Source: Haloechinothrix halophila YIM 93223 (GTDB lineage: Bacteria; Actinomycetota; Actinomycetes; Mycobacteriales; Pseudonocardiaceae). From it: 64,000 nt of DNA. The notes below the pieces were generated by a model. The model saw only the letters and a program-made list of their open reading frames with translations, was not told where the DNA came from and made no database searches. The position numbers and the translations under genes are program-made. The stretch's first letter is position 1. Every line of letters begins with the position of its first letter. Shown piece after piece: positions 16,990-39,804 of the stretch. The stretch is from assembly GCF_000504245.1 (NCBI RefSeq), contig NZ_KI632509.1, positions 2,231,723 through 2,295,722 of the forward strand, given 5' to 3'.

Positions 16990-17120
16990 TCTCCGGGGTC
17001 CTCGCCCCGGTTCGTGGGGATCGCGTCGGGCGGAGTGTCTGGCTTCCGGTGTGACCGGTCACAGTTGCGGGACAGCCCCGGAGTTCCACCGGGTTCCTCA
17101 GATGCCAACGCGGTTGCTGG
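16990..17120 (-). promoter_or_regulatory. Cobalamin riboswitch upstream of cobN
   Basis: On the minus strand the conserved core reads GAGGAACCCGGTG, AACTCCGGGGC, TGTCCCGCAACTGT, then AGCCAGAC (17044-17037). This is the standard B12-riboswitch consensus including the B12 box. A CCGGGG/CCCCGG hairpin follows immediately before the GAGAGGAG ribosome-binding site of cobN, a likely expression platform acting on translation. The divergent cobG starts at 17149 on the other strand and is not downstream of the aptamer. Confidence 0.92.
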
Positions 17121-17148
17121 TTCGTCCAGCAATCTACAGTGGGACATT

Positions 17149-18459: not shown

Positions 18460-19082
18460 TCGACTACCTCACCGACGGGGCGGAGATCTACCGCCGCTCG
18501 TTCGCCACGATCAGGGCGGAAGCCGACGTCGACCGGCTGCCAAGCGACGTCGAACGCGTCGTCGTCCGCATGATCCACTCCTGCGGGATGACCGACCTCG
18601 CCCGCGACGTCGCGTTTACGCCGGACGTCGTCAAGGCGGGCCACGACGCGCTCCGTTCGGGCGCTCCGATCCTCACCGACGCGAAGATGATCGCCTCCGG
18701 CGTCACCCGCCGCAGGTTGCCCGCCGACAACGACGTGGTGTGCACGCTGGCCGACCCTCGGGTGCCCGACCTCGCCACGAAGCTGGACACCACCCGCAGC
18801 GCGGCGGCGCTGGAGCTGTGGCGTGACCGGCTGCCCGGCTCCGTCGTCGCTATCGGCAACGCGCCCACCGCGCTGTTCCGGCTGCTGGAGCTACTGGACG
18901 AGGGCGTCGGCGCGCCCGCCGCGATCATCGGCGTTCCTGTCGGGTTCATCGGCGCCGTCGAGTCCAAGGAGGAGCTGGCCGCGCGGGCACCCGCGCCGTA
19001 TCTGGTGGTGCATGGCAGGCGTGGCGGCAGCGCCATGGCCGTGGCCGCGCTCAACGCGATCGCACAGGAGGCGGAACTGTGA
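18456..19082 (+). CDS. cobH: Precorrin-8X methylmutase CobH
   Basis: A 208-residue enzyme from GTG 18456 ([16 protein letters not shown]) that moves the C11 methyl to C12, giving hydrogenobyrinic acid. The catalytic histidine is in [10 protein letters not shown] (about 46), followed by [15 protein letters not shown] and [17 protein letters not shown], hallmarks of CobH/CbiC. The start overlaps the cobG stop (GTGA) and has AAAGGA upstream; the stop overlaps the cobIJ start. Confidence 0.95.
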
Positions 19083-20659
19083 CCGCGCAAGCCACCGGCA
19101 CGCTGTGGGGCGTTGGCCTCGGACCAGGTGACCCCGAACTGATGACCGTCAAGGCGGCCAGGCTGATCGGTGAGGCCGACGTCATCGCCTACCACTGCGC
19201 CCGCCACGGCCGTAGCATCGCTCGCTCGGTCGCCGAGCCGTATCTGCGTGGTGACCAGCACGAAGAGCGCCTGATGTACCCGGTCACCACCGAGGGCACC
19301 AACCACCCCGGCGGCTACGAGGGCGTGATCCAGGAGTTCTACGAGCACGCCGCCAAGCGGCTCGCCGAACATCTCGACGCGGGACGCGACGTGGTGCTGC
19401 TCTGCGAGGGTGACCCGTTCTTCTACGGCTCCTACATGTACATGCACGAGCGACTCTGCGACCGCTACCGTGCGGTGGCCGTGCCCGGCGTGACGTCGGT
19501 GAGCGCCGCGTCCGCCGCGCTCGGCAGGCCGCTGGCGCAGCGCGATGAGGTACTGACCGTGCTGCCCGGCACGTTGCCGACCCCGGAGCTGGCGATGCGG
19601 CTGGCGGACGCCGACGCCGCCGCCGTGATGAAGCTCGGTCGGACGTTCGGCTCGGTGCGCTCGGCGTTCGAGGAGGCGGGCAAGCTCGACGACGCCTACT
19701 ACGTCGAGCGCGCCACCTGGCACGACGAGGCCGGGCCAGGGTCTACCGGCAGGGGTGTGCAACGGGTGGCGCCGCTGGCCGACATCGACCCGGAGACAGT
19801 CCCCTACTTCTCGGTGGCGCTGCTGGCCAGCCCTGCGTACGCCGCCCGCAAGGGTGGCTCAGGAGTCGTGAGTGCTGATCACGGTTCTAACTCTGATCAG
19901 CACTCACGACCGGGCACCGGTGGCGAGGTCGTCGTCGTGGGCCTCGGACCCGCTGGGCCGGAGTGGCTGACGCCGGAGGCCGCGCAGGCGCTCGCGGAGG
20001 CCGAGCATCTGGTCGGCTACGGCCCCTACGTCGCGCGGGTGCCGCAACGGCAGGGCCAGCAGCGGCACAGTTCCGGCAACCGGGTGGAAGCCGACCGCGC
20101 CACGGAAGCGCTCGAACTGGCCCGCGACGGCGCGTCCGTCGCGGTGGTGTCGTCCGGCGATCCCGGCGTGTTCGCCATGGCGGCCGCCGTGCTGGAACAG
20201 GCAGAGGAGCCCCGCTGGGCCGACGTCAGGGTGCGGGTGCTGCCCGGCGTGACCGCCGCGCAGGCCGCAGCGTCCCGGGTCGGTGCGCCGCTGGGGCACG
20301 ACTACTGCGTACTCTCGCTGTCCGATCGGCTCAAGCCGTGGGAGATCATCGAGCGCAGGCTGGACGCCGTTGGCGCGGCCGATCTCGCCGTCGCGCTCTA
20401 TAACCCGGCCTCGCGCAGCCGCACCGAGCAGCTCGGTAAGGCGCGTGACGTGCTATTGCGGCACCGCGCGGAGACCACGCCGGTCGTCATCGCCCGCGAT
20501 ATTGGCGGCGACGAGGAGTCGGTGACGGTCACCACGCTCGGTGAGCTGGATCCCGCCACTGTGGACATGCGGTGCCTGCTGATCGTCGGCTCGTCGAAGA
20601 CTCGCGTGGTGGAACGGGACGGCACTCAGACGGTGTGGACGCCGCGCAGCTACGACTGA
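19079..20659 (+). CDS. cobIJ: Fused precorrin-2 C20-methyltransferase / precorrin-3B C17-methyltransferase CobIJ
   Basis: A 526-residue two-domain SAM methyltransferase. CobI domain, about residues 1-258: [50 protein letters not shown]. CobJ domain, about 280-526: [58 protein letters not shown]. The same fusion is known from mycobacteria. The linker (about residues 263-278) is encoded by a 46-nt palindromic repeat (19865-19910) also found at the cobO/cobB junction. GTG 19079 overlaps the cobH stop and follows AGGAGG. Confidence 0.95.
19865..19910. repeat. 46-nt palindromic repeat P, copy 1 (inside cobIJ)
   Basis: A perfect 17-bp inverted repeat: GTCGTGAGTGCTGATCA (19865-19881) and TGATCAGCACTCACGAC (19894-19910) around a 12-nt loop containing TTCTAACTC. 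It is read in frame as linker peptide [15 protein letters not shown]. Copy 2 (38371-38416) differs at only 4 of 46 positions and is open in the same frame. Confidence 0.95.
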
Positions 20660-20882: not shown

Positions 20883-21596
20883 TCAGCGCGCGCCGTAGCG
20901 CTCCCAGTGCAGCGCCTCGGTGAGCGGCTTGCGGCTCCGCCAGCCGTGCCGTTCCAGATCCGGTACCTGCTGCAACTTTCGCACCGGGCCAATGCACAGC
21001 CAGGCCACCGGGCGCACGCCTTCGGGTAGCCCGACCAGGTTGGCCAGGAACTCCTCGCGGTAGAAACTCACCCAGCCCACACCCAAGTTCTCCGCCGTCG
21101 CGGCCAGCCACAGGTTCTGGATCGCCAGGCACACCGAGTACAGGCCCGCGTCCGCGATCGCGTGCCTGCCCAGCACGGCGGGCGAGCCGCGCTCGGGGTC
21201 GTAGGTGACGACCACGCCGAGGCTGGACTCCAGGATGCCCTCGATCTTGATCTTGCGGAAGGTGTGGCCGCGCTCGCCGTCGAGCTGCGACTCGAACACC
21301 TCGCGCTCACTGAGCACGTGCTCCCGGAACTGGGTACGGGTGTCGGTATCAGACACGAGCACGAAGTCCCACGGCTGCGACATCCCCACGCTGGGTGCCG
21401 TGTGGGCCGCGCCGAGCACCCGCATGAGCACGTCGTCGTCGATCGGCTCCCCGGTGAACTCGGCGCGCACGTCACGCCTGCGTGCCAGCACGCGGTAGAA
21501 CGCGTCCAGCTCGGGGGCGAGATCGGACTCCATGCCAGCCTCGGTACCGGACCCGGTGCCGGACTCGGTGCTGAACGCCGTGCCGTGCTCGGTCAT
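20883..21596 (-). CDS. bluB: 5,6-dimethylbenzimidazole synthase BluB
   Basis: A 237-residue flavin-destroying enzyme that turns FMNH2 and oxygen into 5,6-dimethylbenzimidazole, the lower ligand of B12. Recognisable parts: FYRVLARRRDVRAEF, AHTAPSVGMSQPWDFVLV, LYSVCLAIQNLWLAATAENL, GVGWVSFYR. The first 25 residues (TESGTGSGTEAG) are low-complexity and not part of the fold; the start could be the internal Met of MESDLAPEL. ATG 21596 overlaps the cobK stop (ATGA). Its need for oxygen agrees with CobG. Confidence 0.93.
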   Translation of the reverse strand: MTEHGTAFSTESGTGSGTEAGMESDLAPELDAFYRVLARRRDVRAEFTGEPIDDDVLMRVLGAAHTAPSVGMSQPWDFVLVSDTDTRTQFREHVLSEREVFESQLDGERGHTFRKIKIEGILESSLGVVVTYDPERGSPAVLGRHAIADAGLYSVCLAIQNLWLAATAENLGVGWVSFYREEFLANLVGLPEGVRPVAWLCIGPVRKLQQVPDLERHGWRSRKPLTEALHWERYGAR

Positions 21597-22330
21597 GCCA
21601 CCTCCAGTGCCCAGTGCAGGGCGTCGTCGACATCGGACACCGTGGGTGTGTCTGGCCGGGGTGGCCTGCGCACGATGACCGAGGGAATGCCGTGCCGCGC
21701 GGCCGCCGTCAGCTTCGCGGCGGTCATGCTGCCACCGCTGTCCTTGCTGACCAGAACGTCGATGCGATGCGTGCGCAGCAGCTCAAGCTCGCGGTCCACT
21801 GTGTACGGACCACGGTCAAGCAGTAGCTCGTGATACTGGGGCAGCGGCGCCTCCGGCGGGTCGACGCAGCGGATCAGGAACCACACCGCGTCGACGTCGG
21901 CGAAGGCGGCGAGGCCTTGCCTGCCGCTGGTGAGAAACGCTCGCTCGCCGAGGCTGGGCAGCAGCTCGGCCGCCTCCTCCAGGCTGTCCACCCAACGCCA
22001 GTCCGCGCCGTCCGGCTGGGTCCAGCCGGGACGTTCCAGCCGCAGCAGCGGCACTCCGGCACGTGCGGTCGCGGCGACAGCCGAGTCGGTGATCCGCGCG
22101 GCGAACGGGTGCGTGGCGTCCACCACCGCCCGGACGTCGTGCTTGGCCAGCCAGGCCGTGAGGCCGTCCGGCCCGCCGAAGCCACCGAGCCTGACCTCGC
22201 CTTCTGGCAGCCGGGGCCGTTCGACCCTGCCCGCCAGCGAGGACATCACGGCGACGCCTCGTGCGTGCAGGGCAGCCGCAAGCGCGCGGGCCTCGGACGT
22301 GCCACCGAGGATCAGGACGGGATAGCTCAC
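21593..22330 (-). CDS. cobK: Precorrin-6A reductase CobK
   Basis: A 245-residue NADPH-dependent reductase from GTG 22330 (VSYPVLILGGTSEARALAAAL), with VVDATHPFAARITDSA, FLTSGRQGLAAF, and VSKDSGGSMTAAKL, all standard CobK/CbiJ blocks. It reduces precorrin-6A to precorrin-6B. Other possible starts are GTG 22339 or ATG 22354, the latter overlapping the divergent cbiD. The two genes start 12 bp apart, head to head, so each promoter must lie in the other's reading frame or the transcripts are leaderless. Confidence 0.92.
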   Translation of the reverse strand: MSYPVLILGGTSEARALAAALHARGVAVMSSLAGRVERPRLPEGEVRLGGFGGPDGLTAWLAKHDVRAVVDATHPFAARITDSAVAATARAGVPLLRLERPGWTQPDGADWRWVDSLEEAAELLPSLGERAFLTSGRQGLAAFADVDAVWFLIRCVDPPEAPLPQYHELLLDRGPYTVDRELELLRTHRIDVLVSKDSGGSMTAAKLTAAARHGIPSVIVRRPPRPDTPTVSDVDDALHWALEVA

Positions 22331-33979: not shown

Positions 33980-34165
33980 CGCGAGTCCCGCGTTCCGGGG
34001 CCGCGTGTTCCGACTTGCGGGAGCGCGTGTTCTGAGTTCTGGCGCTACGTGTTCCGACGTCGACGTCCGCGCGGCGCGGCTCGGTGCAACTCGCGCGGAA
34101 TACGGTGCGGTTCGCGCCGGATACGGTGAAACTCGCGCGGAATACGGTGCGACTCGCGGAGAGGC
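33980..34165. repeat. Intergenic 21-nt repeat array R2
   Basis: Four 21-nt units at 34082-34102, 34103-34123, 34124-34144 and 34145-34165 with core CGGTGCAACTCGCGCGGAAT, the same family as R1 (832-915). Before them (33980-34070) are units of about 21-22 nt with GCGTGTTCCGAC-type cores, related in reverse complement to arrays R3-R5. The whole gap between the HAD phosphatase and cobL (convergent) is filled by repeats. Confidence 0.85.
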
Positions 34166-35504: not shown

Positions 35505-35650
35505 GTGTGGGATGATGCCGTGTCGACGGCTGCCGAGGAACCCGGTGCGAGTCCGGGGCGGTCCCGCCACTGTCACCTGCCGTGCGCAGGGAGCCAGAAC
35601 GTCGGTGGTCGTTGCCTGTGCCGGGGCTTTCCCGGACGGGCGAGGCTGAA
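35505..35650 (+). promoter_or_regulatory. Cobalamin riboswitch upstream of the chelatase-cobO-cobB-cobC operon
   Basis: Core GAGGAACCCGGTGCGAGTCC, GGCGGTCCCGCCACTGT (35559-35572 region) and the B12 box GAGCCAGAAC (35591-35600) fit the cobalamin aptamer. A GC-rich segment (35612-35650, GCCTGTGCCGGGGC... CCCGGACGGGCGAGGC) lies between the aptamer and the AAGGAG site of the chelatase gene and can form the expression-platform stem. Confidence 0.92.
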
Positions 35651-37745: not shown

Positions 37746-38359
37746 TGCCGAAAGGACAGCCAGACGTCGTCCCCAACGACGGCTTGACCACGCGGCAGCG
37801 CCGCAACCGGCCGATCTTCGCGGTGCACACCGGCCCGATGAAGGGCAAGTCGACTGCCGCGTTCGGCATGGCGATGCGGGCATGGAACCAGGGCTGGTCG
37901 ATCGGTGTATTCCAGTTCGTCAAGTCCGCCAAGTGGCGCGTCGGCGAGGAGTCCGCGTTGCGTGCGCTCGGCGAGGTGCACGAGAACACCGGCCAGGGCG
38001 GTCCGGTCGAGTGGCACAAGATGGGCGCGGGCTGGAGCTGGTCGCGTAAGAAGGGCACCGAACAGGACCACGCCGCCGACGCGCGCGAGGGCTGGGAGGA
38101 GATCAAGCGCAGGATCGCCGCCCAGCAGCACGACTTCTACGTGCTGGACGAGTTCAGCTACATCCTGCACTGGGGCTGGGTGGACGTCGATGACGTTGTC
38201 AAGACGATCAGCGAGCGCGAGGGTCGCCAGCACGTGATCATCACCGGCCGCAACGCCCCGGACACGCTGATCGACGCCGCCGACCTCGTGGTGGAGATGA
38301 CCAAGGTCAAGCACCCCATGGACGCCGGTCAGAAGGGGCAGCGGGGGATCGAGTGGTGA
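37745..38359 (+). CDS. cobO: Cob(I)yrinic acid a,c-diamide adenosyltransferase CobO
   Basis: A 204-residue ATP:corrinoid adenosyltransferase of the CobA/CobO/BtuR type, adding the 5'-deoxyadenosyl ligand to Co(I). The P-loop is VHTGPMKGKSTAAFGMAMRA, followed by GVFQFVKSAKWRVGEESAL, FYVLDEFSYILHWGWVD and IITGRNAPDTLIDAADLVVE. The start overlaps the chelatase stop (TGATG); the stop overlaps the likely cobB start (GTGA). Confidence 0.96.
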   Translation: MPKGQPDVVPNDGLTTRQRRNRPIFAVHTGPMKGKSTAAFGMAMRAWNQGWSIGVFQFVKSAKWRVGEESALRALGEVHENTGQGGPVEWHKMGAGWSWSRKKGTEQDHAADAREGWEEIKRRIAAQQHDFYVLDEFSYILHWGWVDVDDVVKTISEREGRQHVIITGRNAPDTLIDAADLVVEMTKVKHPMDAGQKGQRGIEW

Positions 38360-39804
38360 CCGTCCCAGGGGTCGTGAGTGCTGATCAGACTTCTAACTCG
38401 GATCAGCACTCACGACGGGTGCCCCGGCTGGTGATCGCCGCGCCCGCGTCCGGCAACGGCAAGACGACCGTGGCCACCGGGCTGATGGCGGCGCTGCGGG
38501 CGTCCGGGCTGGACGTCTCCGGCCATAAGGTCGGCCCGGACTACATCGACCCGAGCTACCACGCGCTCGCGACCGGACGTCCCGGCCGCAACCTCGACCC
38601 GTACCTGCAGGCCGAGGAGCGGGTGGTGCCACTGTTCCTGCACGGCGCGGCCGGGGCTGACATCGCCGTGGTCGAGGGCGTGATGGGACTGTTCGACGGC
38701 GCGCTCGGCAGCGAGGGCTTCGCGTCGACCGCGCATGTCGCACGGCTGATCGACGCGCCGGTGGTGCTGGTCGTCGACGCGAGTGCCGCGGGCCGCAGCG
38801 CCGCCGCGATGGTGCACGGCTTCGCCAGCTACGACCCCGACGTGACGCTGGCCGGGGTGATCCTGAACAAGGTCGGTTCCGAGCGGCACGAGACCGAACT
38901 GCGGTCCGCGATCGAAGGGCTCGGCATCCCGGTGCTCGGCGCGCTGCACCGCACCGAGGGAATTCACGCACCGAGCAGGCACCTCGGGCTGGTGCCGGTC
39001 GGGGAGCGGGAACGCGAGGCCACCACGATGCTGGATCGGCTGCGCGCCTGGGTGACCGAGGGCGTCGACCTGGACGCGGTGCGCCGAGTGGCCGCCGCCG
39101 CACCACCGCTGCTTGGCGTGCCATGGGAGCCGGGCGCCGCACTCGGCGTCGCCGGCACTGCCGGTGGCCCGGTGGTCGCCGCCGCTGGCGGGCGGGCGTT
39201 CACGTTCCGCTATGCCGAGAACATCGAGTTGCTCACCGCGGCTGGCGTGGCGGTCGTCGACGTCGATCCCGCCGTCGACGAGCGGCTGCCCGATGGCTGC
39301 GCCGGGTTGTACTTCGGTGGCGGGTTCCCCGAGATGCACGCCGACGACCTGTCCGCGAACGAGTCGCTGCGGGCCGAGGTCGCGGGTGCCGCGGCGCGCG
39401 GGCTGCCGGTGGTGGCAGAGTGCGCCGGGCTGACCTACCTGTGCCGGGAGCTGGACGGGCTGCCGATGGCTGGCGTGCTGGATGCCACCGCCGCGATGAC
39501 ACCGAAGCGTACGCTGGGCTACCGGACGGCACGGGCCGTCGGCGACAGCGTGCTCGCCAGCGCGGGCGACACCGTGACTGGGCACGAGTTCCACCGCACG
39601 GTCGTCACCCCCGCGCAGGGCAGGCAGGCGGCCTGGCGGTTCCACGGCAGGCACGAGGGCACCGTGGAAGGCTTCGTCACCGGCCCGACCGGGGTGCACG
39701 CCTCGTACCTGCACATCCACTGGGCGGGCCACCCCGCGCTGGCGAGCAGGTTCGCGGCCAGTGCGACGGCGGCCGTCCGTGCCCAGCGAGCGAGCACAGC
39801 GTGA
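38356..39804 (+). CDS. cobB: Cobyrinic acid a,c-diamide synthase CobB
   Basis: A 482-residue amidotransferase. The dethiobiotin-synthetase-like ATP domain has IAAPASGNGKTTVATGLMAA and VVEGVMGLFDGALG; the class I glutaminase-like domain has GGGFPEMHADDLSAN and the nucleophile in VVAECAGLTYLCREL. It amidates the a and c side chains before cobalt insertion in the late route. GTG 38356 overlaps the cobO stop and has GGGGGA upstream. With this start, residues 6-21 are encoded by palindromic repeat copy 2. The alternative GTG 38419 (VPRLVIAAPAS) would leave that repeat in a cobO-cobB gap but lacks a ribosome-binding site. Confidence 0.93.
   Translation: MTVPGVVSADQTSNSDQHSRRVPRLVIAAPASGNGKTTVATGLMAALRASGLDVSGHKVGPDYIDPSYHALATGRPGRNLDPYLQAEERVVPLFLHGAAGADIAVVEGVMGLFDGALGSEGFASTAHVARLIDAPVVLVVDASAAGRSAAAMVHGFASYDPDVTLAGVILNKVGSERHETELRSAIEGLGIPVLGALHRTEGIHAPSRHLGLVPVGEREREATTMLDRLRAWVTEGVDLDAVRRVAAAAPPLLGVPWEPGAALGVAGTAGGPVVAAAGGRAFTFRYAENIELLTAAGVAVVDVDPAVDERLPDGCAGLYFGGGFPEMHADDLSANESLRAEVAGAAARGLPVVAECAGLTYLCRELDGLPMAGVLDATAAMTPKRTLGYRTARAVGDSVLASAGDTVTGHEFHRTVVTPAQGRQAAWRFHGRHEGTVEGFVTGPTGVHASYLHIHWAGHPALASRFAASATAAVRAQRASTA
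38371..38416. repeat. 46-nt palindromic repeat P, copy 2 (cobO/cobB junction)
   Basis: A perfect 16-bp inverted repeat: GTCGTGAGTGCTGATC (38371-38386) and GATCAGCACTCACGAC (38401-38416), with a 14-nt loop including TTCTAACTC. 42 of 46 positions are identical to copy 1 (19865-19910). It is open in the same frame, giving [15 protein letters not shown] at the CobB N-terminus. Confidence 0.95.

Follow-up and report, generated by a model that had tools for sequence, protein, structure and literature searches.

A dispersed 44-bp palindrome of Pseudonocardiaceae, REP-like in kind and possibly overwritten in place, with two in-frame copies among cobalamin genes of Haloechinothrix halophila

The usual explanation for dispersed repeats of bacteria is that a transposase spreads them and that older copies decay. 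The repeats known as REPs are placed after stop codons, and the Rickettsia palindromic elements are palindromic repeats that lie in frame within protein genes. REPs and REPINs are described as short and abundant palindromes that form strain- or species-specific classes and have an uneven copy number among related hosts (PMC2817692, PMC3686654, PMC8049555), that carry the foot sequences GTAG/GTGG (PMC2817692), and that serve as targets for insertion sequences (PMC1525189), at least in the portions of these sources on which we draw. The portion used of the report on enterobacterial RU-1, RU-2 and RU-3 presents them as short mobile repeats of 103-168 bp which lie between genes and in some cases have become an in-frame part of a gene (PMC2759123), and that of the report on uptake-signal terminators of Neisseria and Pasteurellaceae describes close inverted copies of a 9-11-nt word that form hairpins after genes (PMC1852404).

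The window analysed here is a stretch of 64,000 nucleotides (64 kb) from the genome of H. halophila. A sequence-only reading had pointed to a perfect 17-bp inverted repeat (GTCGTGAGTGCTGATCA / TGATCAGCACTCACGAC) at 19865-19910 and to a near-identical twin at 38371-38416, and both were confirmed, the two being identical at 42 of 46 positions in a comparison by eye; they are also open in a common reading frame, as had been noted, with the peptide VVSAD(HG/QT)SNSDQHSR. That both copies lie at junctions holds for the CobI-CobJ linker, but for copy 2 a position between cobO and cobB is not quite exact: it begins 12 bp past the cobO stop, yet within the listed cobB ORF (38353-39804), where it lengthens the CobB N-terminus in frame. 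The unit has 44 bp, TCGTGAGTG-N9-GTT(CT/AG)AAC-N9-CACTCACGA, and occurs twice in the window, as compared to not once in 100 dinucleotide shuffles. The features are as follows.

19866..19909, + strand: 44-bp palindromic element, copy 1, read in frame as part of the CobI-CobJ linker, absent from G001-G003 (same-genus relatives)
19866..19874, + strand: copy 1, left constant box TCGTGAGTG
19875..19883, + strand: copy 1, left variable arm CTGATCACG
19884..19891, + strand: copy 1, eight-base core GTTCTAAC (GTTAGAAC in the opposite orientation)
19892..19900, + strand: copy 1, right variable arm TCTGATCAG
19901..19909, + strand: copy 1, right constant box CACTCACGA
19079..20659, + strand: cobIJ host ORF, 526 aa, read through copy 1 (16 residues)
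38372..38415, + strand: 44-bp palindromic element, copy 2, in frame in the cobB N-terminal extension, absent from G001-G003
38390..38397, + strand: copy 2, core CTTCTAAC, one change relative to GTTCTAAC
38353..39804, + strand: cobB host ORF, 483 aa

The flanking bases at ±1 tend to extend the palindrome, as they are complementary in 160 of 188 cases (94 expected). By eye, neither a target-site duplication, which is the criterion for MITEs, nor a GTAG/GTGG foot as in REPs was found in the flanks of the 32 H. halophila copies described below. The folds of four example elements are strong (z -5.3 to -8.3), and a known structured RNA family could be ruled out, as in a search of six element-bearing loci against Rfam 15 nothing matched over the elements at gathering score and only microRNA families overlapped them, far below their cut-offs.

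Several other features were noticed. Between a HAD-type gene and cobL lies a second, unlike repeat, about 77 bp long (34083-34159 of the window), which has many copies in H. halophila and in the same-genus genome G002. The 5' end of a cobN-like gene carries a cobalamin riboswitch (RF00174, 44.1 bits, above the cut-off) at about 17015-17141 on the minus strand (L058 1150-1276), and the 5' end of a chelatase-like ORF (L059) a sub-threshold match to the AdoCbl riboswitch (45.4 of 50 bits) at about 35524-35614 on the plus strand. At one locus of Amycolatopsis orientalis (L115), the element (485-528) is found 13 bp from a cobalamin riboswitch (249-471).

The H. halophila genome (a single contig of 5.55 Mb, 98.9% complete) was searched with the pattern TCGTGAGTG-N(10-38)-CACTCACGA and, as a control, with the reversed pattern. 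There are 32 exact-ended copies, all with a spacing of exactly 26 bases, and none of the control, so the genome-wide search that the sequence-only reading had proposed revealed a dispersed element; a 60-nt blastn query recovered two further, degenerate copies (5203636 and 176916). Within the family, which the named loci indicate to be the Pseudonocardiaceae, 89 of 297 genomes from 17 of 44 genera contain at least one copy, 45 (counted from the table) have at least ten, the maximum is 443, and 208 have no match, with the control at zero in every row. The distribution is uneven also within genera, the three same-genus genomes having 0, 1 and 0 copies as opposed to 32 in H. halophila, and copies per genome running from 0 to 312 within genus g15. 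No match was found in 24 genomes from other families of the same order (G036-G059). The matches listed from named genomes come from Amycolatopsis, Kibdelosporangium, Prauserella, Qaidamihabitans, an Actinophytocola MAG and a record under the name 'Rhodococcus rhodnii' (NRRL B-16535, JOAA01; L094, L103, L116, L120, L152), which is the only out-of-family case among the matches listed and, judged from its genome size of 12.4 Mb alone, is probably a mislabelled member of the Pseudonocardiaceae. One uncultivated viral contig has the element (L253:30-73, close to the end of the examined stretch); as this is a single contig, carriage by phages was dismissed.

As to the origin of the two window copies, it had been suggested that an intercistronic hairpin was captured into the coding sequence when cobI and cobJ fused. 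The three relatives contradict this, as in all of them CobIJ is already fused and has an ordinary linker without the palindrome, and the palindrome is absent also from their cobO-cobB junctions. Capture at fusion is thus rejected, and the element must have been inserted into cobIJ and cobB. Of the two outcomes that the sequence-only reading had named as refuting it, neither arose, as the genome has many more copies and the linker peptide is not conserved in the three relatives. A perfectly clean single insertion is not seen because the relatives are 8-15% diverged and most junctions differ by further bases.

The element is found predominantly at gene ends. With gene context taken from a crude home-made gene caller and with stop-codon positions and flank register judged by eye, 26 of the 32 H. 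halophila copies follow or overlap a stop (including the CobB copy, which follows cobO), three are intragenic and three are ambiguous. As a rule a copy thus follows a stop directly or overlaps it, and positions inside genes are rare (three of 32 according to the gene caller, four if CobB is counted). The element often provides the stop codon itself: 16 of 33 gene ends adjoining an element stop at the TGA within TCGTGA, and none stops at the next possible stop; at one locus (L050), the element comprises the stop of the first gene, the GTG start of the second and an in-frame extension of the second. Fourteen stop-overlap sites, with L067 left out as a duplicate of one L063 site, were queried in G001-G003, and 12 of them (all but L066 and L053) were resolved in at least one relative. 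In three of the 12, the element-free relative has a native TCGTGAG or TCGTAA exactly at the site (by eye); in six, at least one relative stops at the same codon, and in the other six the stop is shifted, truncated or different.

A similar picture emerged from 1.17 Mb of three Amycolatopsis genomes (A. orientalis, A. decaplanina and A. roodepoortensis), which have 67 elements, 46 of them in counted spacers. The element is present in 21 of the 110 spacers between convergent genes, in 21 of the 548 between codirectional genes and in 4 of the 135 between divergent genes (convergent versus divergent, P = 3e-5), and other strong hairpins occupy 27, 55 and 4 spacers of these three classes, respectively. 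Alternatively, the element could be a bidirectional intrinsic terminator module that has been kept and multiplied by selection for termination, its arms drifting with compensation as only the stem matters. Besides the enrichment at 3' ends and in convergent spacers and the strong folds, this is supported by T-runs beside the hairpin in Kibdelosporangium (72 of 224 versus 142 of 840, P = 1e-6) and in the 'R. rhodnii' record. Such T-runs are not enriched in H. halophila, Amycolatopsis or Qaidamihabitans, and the stem mismatches, read in the transcribed sense, are 20 G.T and 27 A.C and thus give no G.T bias, so selection at the RNA level is unsupported and was discarded. A stem alone requires neither the fixed length of 44 bp nor the constant TCGTGAGTG ends, and a module kept only for termination is on the whole unlikely. 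Termination as such is likely at gene ends, where the copies, judged by their sequence and position, probably terminate transcription in both directions or serve as hairpins of the 3' end.

Some copies lie inside proteins. At least four proteins of H. halophila have the element in frame, namely CobIJ, CobB and two that we take to be NuoG-like and DhaK-DhaL-like, names given from the sequence without a family search. The NuoG-like protein uses the same element frame as CobB (VVSAHQGSNPDQHSRP), and so does the DhaK-DhaL-like protein, where the element lies between both domains (VVSADQSSNPDQHSRP). Counted over 64 strand-readings of the element, one frame is never open, the second is open six times and the third 31 times, so that survival mainly in one frame is what would be expected of chance plus selection; intragenic copies would persist only in the stop-free frame and only in linkers. 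The likeness to Rickettsia palindromic elements that had been proposed holds loosely, insofar as this is a dispersed palindrome that can reside in frame in genes, but the in-gene copies are a minority. In nuoG, the same slot contains, in frame, this element in H. halophila, another hairpin in G002 and G003, and none in G001, and the left ends (TCGTGA) of the H. halophila and G002 hairpins fall at one point. Comparison of the G002 hairpin with that of G003 gives 37 of 55 identical bases and four stem pairs in which both partners have changed, and as they are thus diverged versions of one hairpin, two kinds and not three are found at this locus. The apparent exchange of hairpins within the nuoG frame is the hardest fact for a reading by termination only, which cannot explain it, and the in-frame copies in cobIJ and the dhaKL-like gene stand against it as well.

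How the element changes over time is best seen in Amycolatopsis, for which syntenic contigs of A. orientalis (470 kb), A. decaplanina (440 kb) and A. roodepoortensis (260 kb) were compared. With up to three end mismatches they have 36, 25 and 6 copies, of which 36, 23 and 5 have perfect ends. The commonest arm of A. orientalis, GTAATGACG, makes up 46 of 70 arms there and 0 of 50 in A. decaplanina, whose own commonest arm, GTAAGGACG, makes up 31 of 50 and is found in 0 of 70 A. orientalis arms; the A. roodepoortensis arms are of the A. decaplanina type. The arms are not uniform, with other types in 24 of the 70 A. orientalis arms and at least two copies with A. orientalis-type arms on both sides among the 293 copies of A. 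decaplanina. No anchored partner was available for 15 of the 36 A. orientalis and 6 of the 25 A. decaplanina copies, and at 8 of the 21 A. orientalis sites anchored in A. decaplanina the element is present in both species (in the opposite direction there are ten common pairs, two of which, with gaps above 500 bp, are excluded from the eight). At all eight common sites the fifth arm base is T in A. orientalis and G in A. decaplanina, on both arms, and at six of them the orientation of the core is flipped. This identical double change at eight of eight sites is difficult to reconcile with compensated drift in a terminator stem. At a further locus, for which 8 out of 14 genomes of Amycolatopsis gave a resolved site, the element lies between the same genes in six of the eight and is absent in two, with four arm types at one place across the six species; the aligned segments of the five other element-bearing species are 91-96% identical to A. 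orientalis.

It could be argued that nothing is overwritten at such sites, and that each species has its own master copy which recurrently and independently hits the same few slots after stops. Differences of several bases between the species are common in the slot flanks, two of the eight common pairs (A. orientalis C15 11182 and 107828) are out of flank register, 20.5% of the convergent spacers in A. orientalis and 23.1% in A. decaplanina are occupied, and a range of 0-312 copies within one genus would fit as well. Occupancy of the 8 of 21 common slots could thus partly reflect independent insertion into favoured spacers. Eight is, however, about three times the 2.8 expected from a rough hand calculation, which starts from the spacer occupancies and assumes half of the slots to be convergent. 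By eye, the boundaries at four of the eight common sites are in exact register on one side at least, and six of the eight resolved Amycolatopsis genomes have retained the element between the same genes, which makes it improbable that independent insertion is the whole explanation. It is far less probable still that the element is a DNA-binding site, such as a large dyad operator or a site of chromosome organisation, with a protein recognising the ends and the GTTNNAAC core. Constant and symmetric ends and core would suit such a site, as would the lack of an RNA-type mismatch bias, but the arms change wholesale, the copies lie after stops and not at promoters (of the 135 divergent spacers only 4 have one), and more than two thirds of the family genomes (208 of 297) lack it.

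Slots of the element can also hold other hairpins. Out of 22 A. orientalis and A. decaplanina slots that were first scored as vacant in the other species, 13 have a strong hairpin there (score of at least 12), whereas with one shuffle per slot none scored above 8. Two of the 13 turned out to be the same 44-bp element interrupted by hairpin-bearing inserts, so the corrected count is 11 of 20 slots with another hairpin, and one further vacant slot has a half-remnant of the element. That the same slots host other hairpins would also be expected of terminators. The three Amycolatopsis regions have 176 strong hairpins in total, of which 62 are the 44-bp element; the other 114 form 28 clusters, 15 of which have just one member, while the larger clusters are families of dispersed hairpins. 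Further long dispersed hairpin families were seen in these regions, for example GTGAAGGCCCCCTTCC, GAAGGGCGCTTTCCCCGCAT and GTCCCCAATGTGGCATTGGGG, some with RTGA near their ends.

The element is itself subject to insertion. In A. orientalis and A. decaplanina there are half-elements that are held apart by longer repeats which have entered at the core; one group of these repeats starts with ATTGAGGGGTAAGGCAAA, and three other core inserts are MITE-like, with the 8-bp core GTTAGAAC duplicated exactly at two of the three:

A. decaplanina C32:87167-87450, MITE-like core insert
A. decaplanina C32:135594-135902, MITE-like core insert
A. orientalis C15 piece 21519-21879, MITE-like core insert

As repeats insert in its core, the palindrome is a target too, as REPs are for insertion sequences in the part of PMC1525189 considered.

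Intact ends, paired arm changes at common sites and the replacement by other hairpins require a conversion or transposition process. We lean, with some reserve, towards a mobile palindrome of the Pseudonocardiaceae that is REP-like and non-coding, is not driven by a RAYT, is overwritten in place and probably terminates transcription at gene ends. It counts against this reading that no mobilising protein was encountered and that the flanks show no target duplication. Copies would be spread by some machinery other than a RAYT and would land preferentially at (TC)GTGA-like stop or start signals and at sites that already have a hairpin, and the incoming palindrome would overwrite the resident hairpin; palindrome-templated conversion may be the mover instead. 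With overwriting, the ends would stay intact, both arms would change together and the orientation of the core would be randomised, and a copy at the end of a gene would be retained as it does no harm in that place. A stronger version of the overwriting reading is conceivable but rather doubtful: a RAYT-independent 'hairpin-homing' that recognises palindromes as such, swaps a resident hairpin in place for one of the same or a different family, even within coding sequence as in nuoG, and rewrites hundreds of them in concert while stop and start signals and the frame are kept. The element has a direct editing effect on proteins and on the ends of genes, as it contributes stop codons, start codons and linker peptides, and its copies are natural, countable reporters of rewriting that can be tested in the culturable and industrially important Amycolatopsis.

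Among the known systems, uptake-signal terminators share the inverted word pair and the hairpin after genes, but the repeat here is the whole 44-bp unit. Outside elements there are 10 single TCGTGAGTG words in A. orientalis (470 kb), 17 in A. decaplanina (440 kb) and 6 in A. roodepoortensis (260 kb), where about 1-2 are expected, and one exact single TCGTGAGTG in the 64-kb window; most of those in the Amycolatopsis regions are half-elements or remnants, and as single words are not in excess once half-elements are set aside, a DNA uptake signal is rejected. Intrinsic terminators resemble the element by the hairpin directly after stops, the enrichment between convergent genes and the T-runs in some genera, and differ from it as it has constant ends, copies within coding regions and no T-run in H. 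halophila. RU-1, RU-2 and RU-3 are likewise short repeats, intergenic and sometimes in frame in genes, but have 103-168 bp instead of 44 bp, and the part used of their description does not speak of rewritten arms. With Rickettsia palindromic elements it has the in-frame residence in common, and it is distinguished by its 44 bp, its mostly extragenic location (3-4 of 32 in genes) and the different phylum.

No description of the element was found in the literature, mainly open-access, among the matches listed, and REPs and REPINs come closest. In the broad sense the element belongs there, with many dispersed short palindromes that are mostly extragenic, and it is like them short, abundant and palindromic, with species-specific arms, a patchy copy number and insertions targeted to its core. 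It differs from them by the lack of a GTAG/GTGG foot, the near-perfect 44-bp dyad, the arms that appear to be rewritten in place, and a host without RAYT. In a scan of 24 genomes with the Y1 profile of RAYTs (PF01797), seven had a match; H. halophila has none, and of the 13 other genomes with the element 11 have none either (the exceptions being G030 and G077), whereas 5 of 14 control genomes, E. coli among them, have one, and a RAYT-driven REP was rejected. The element is thus REP-like in kind and set apart by the absent RAYT and the apparent rewriting in place.
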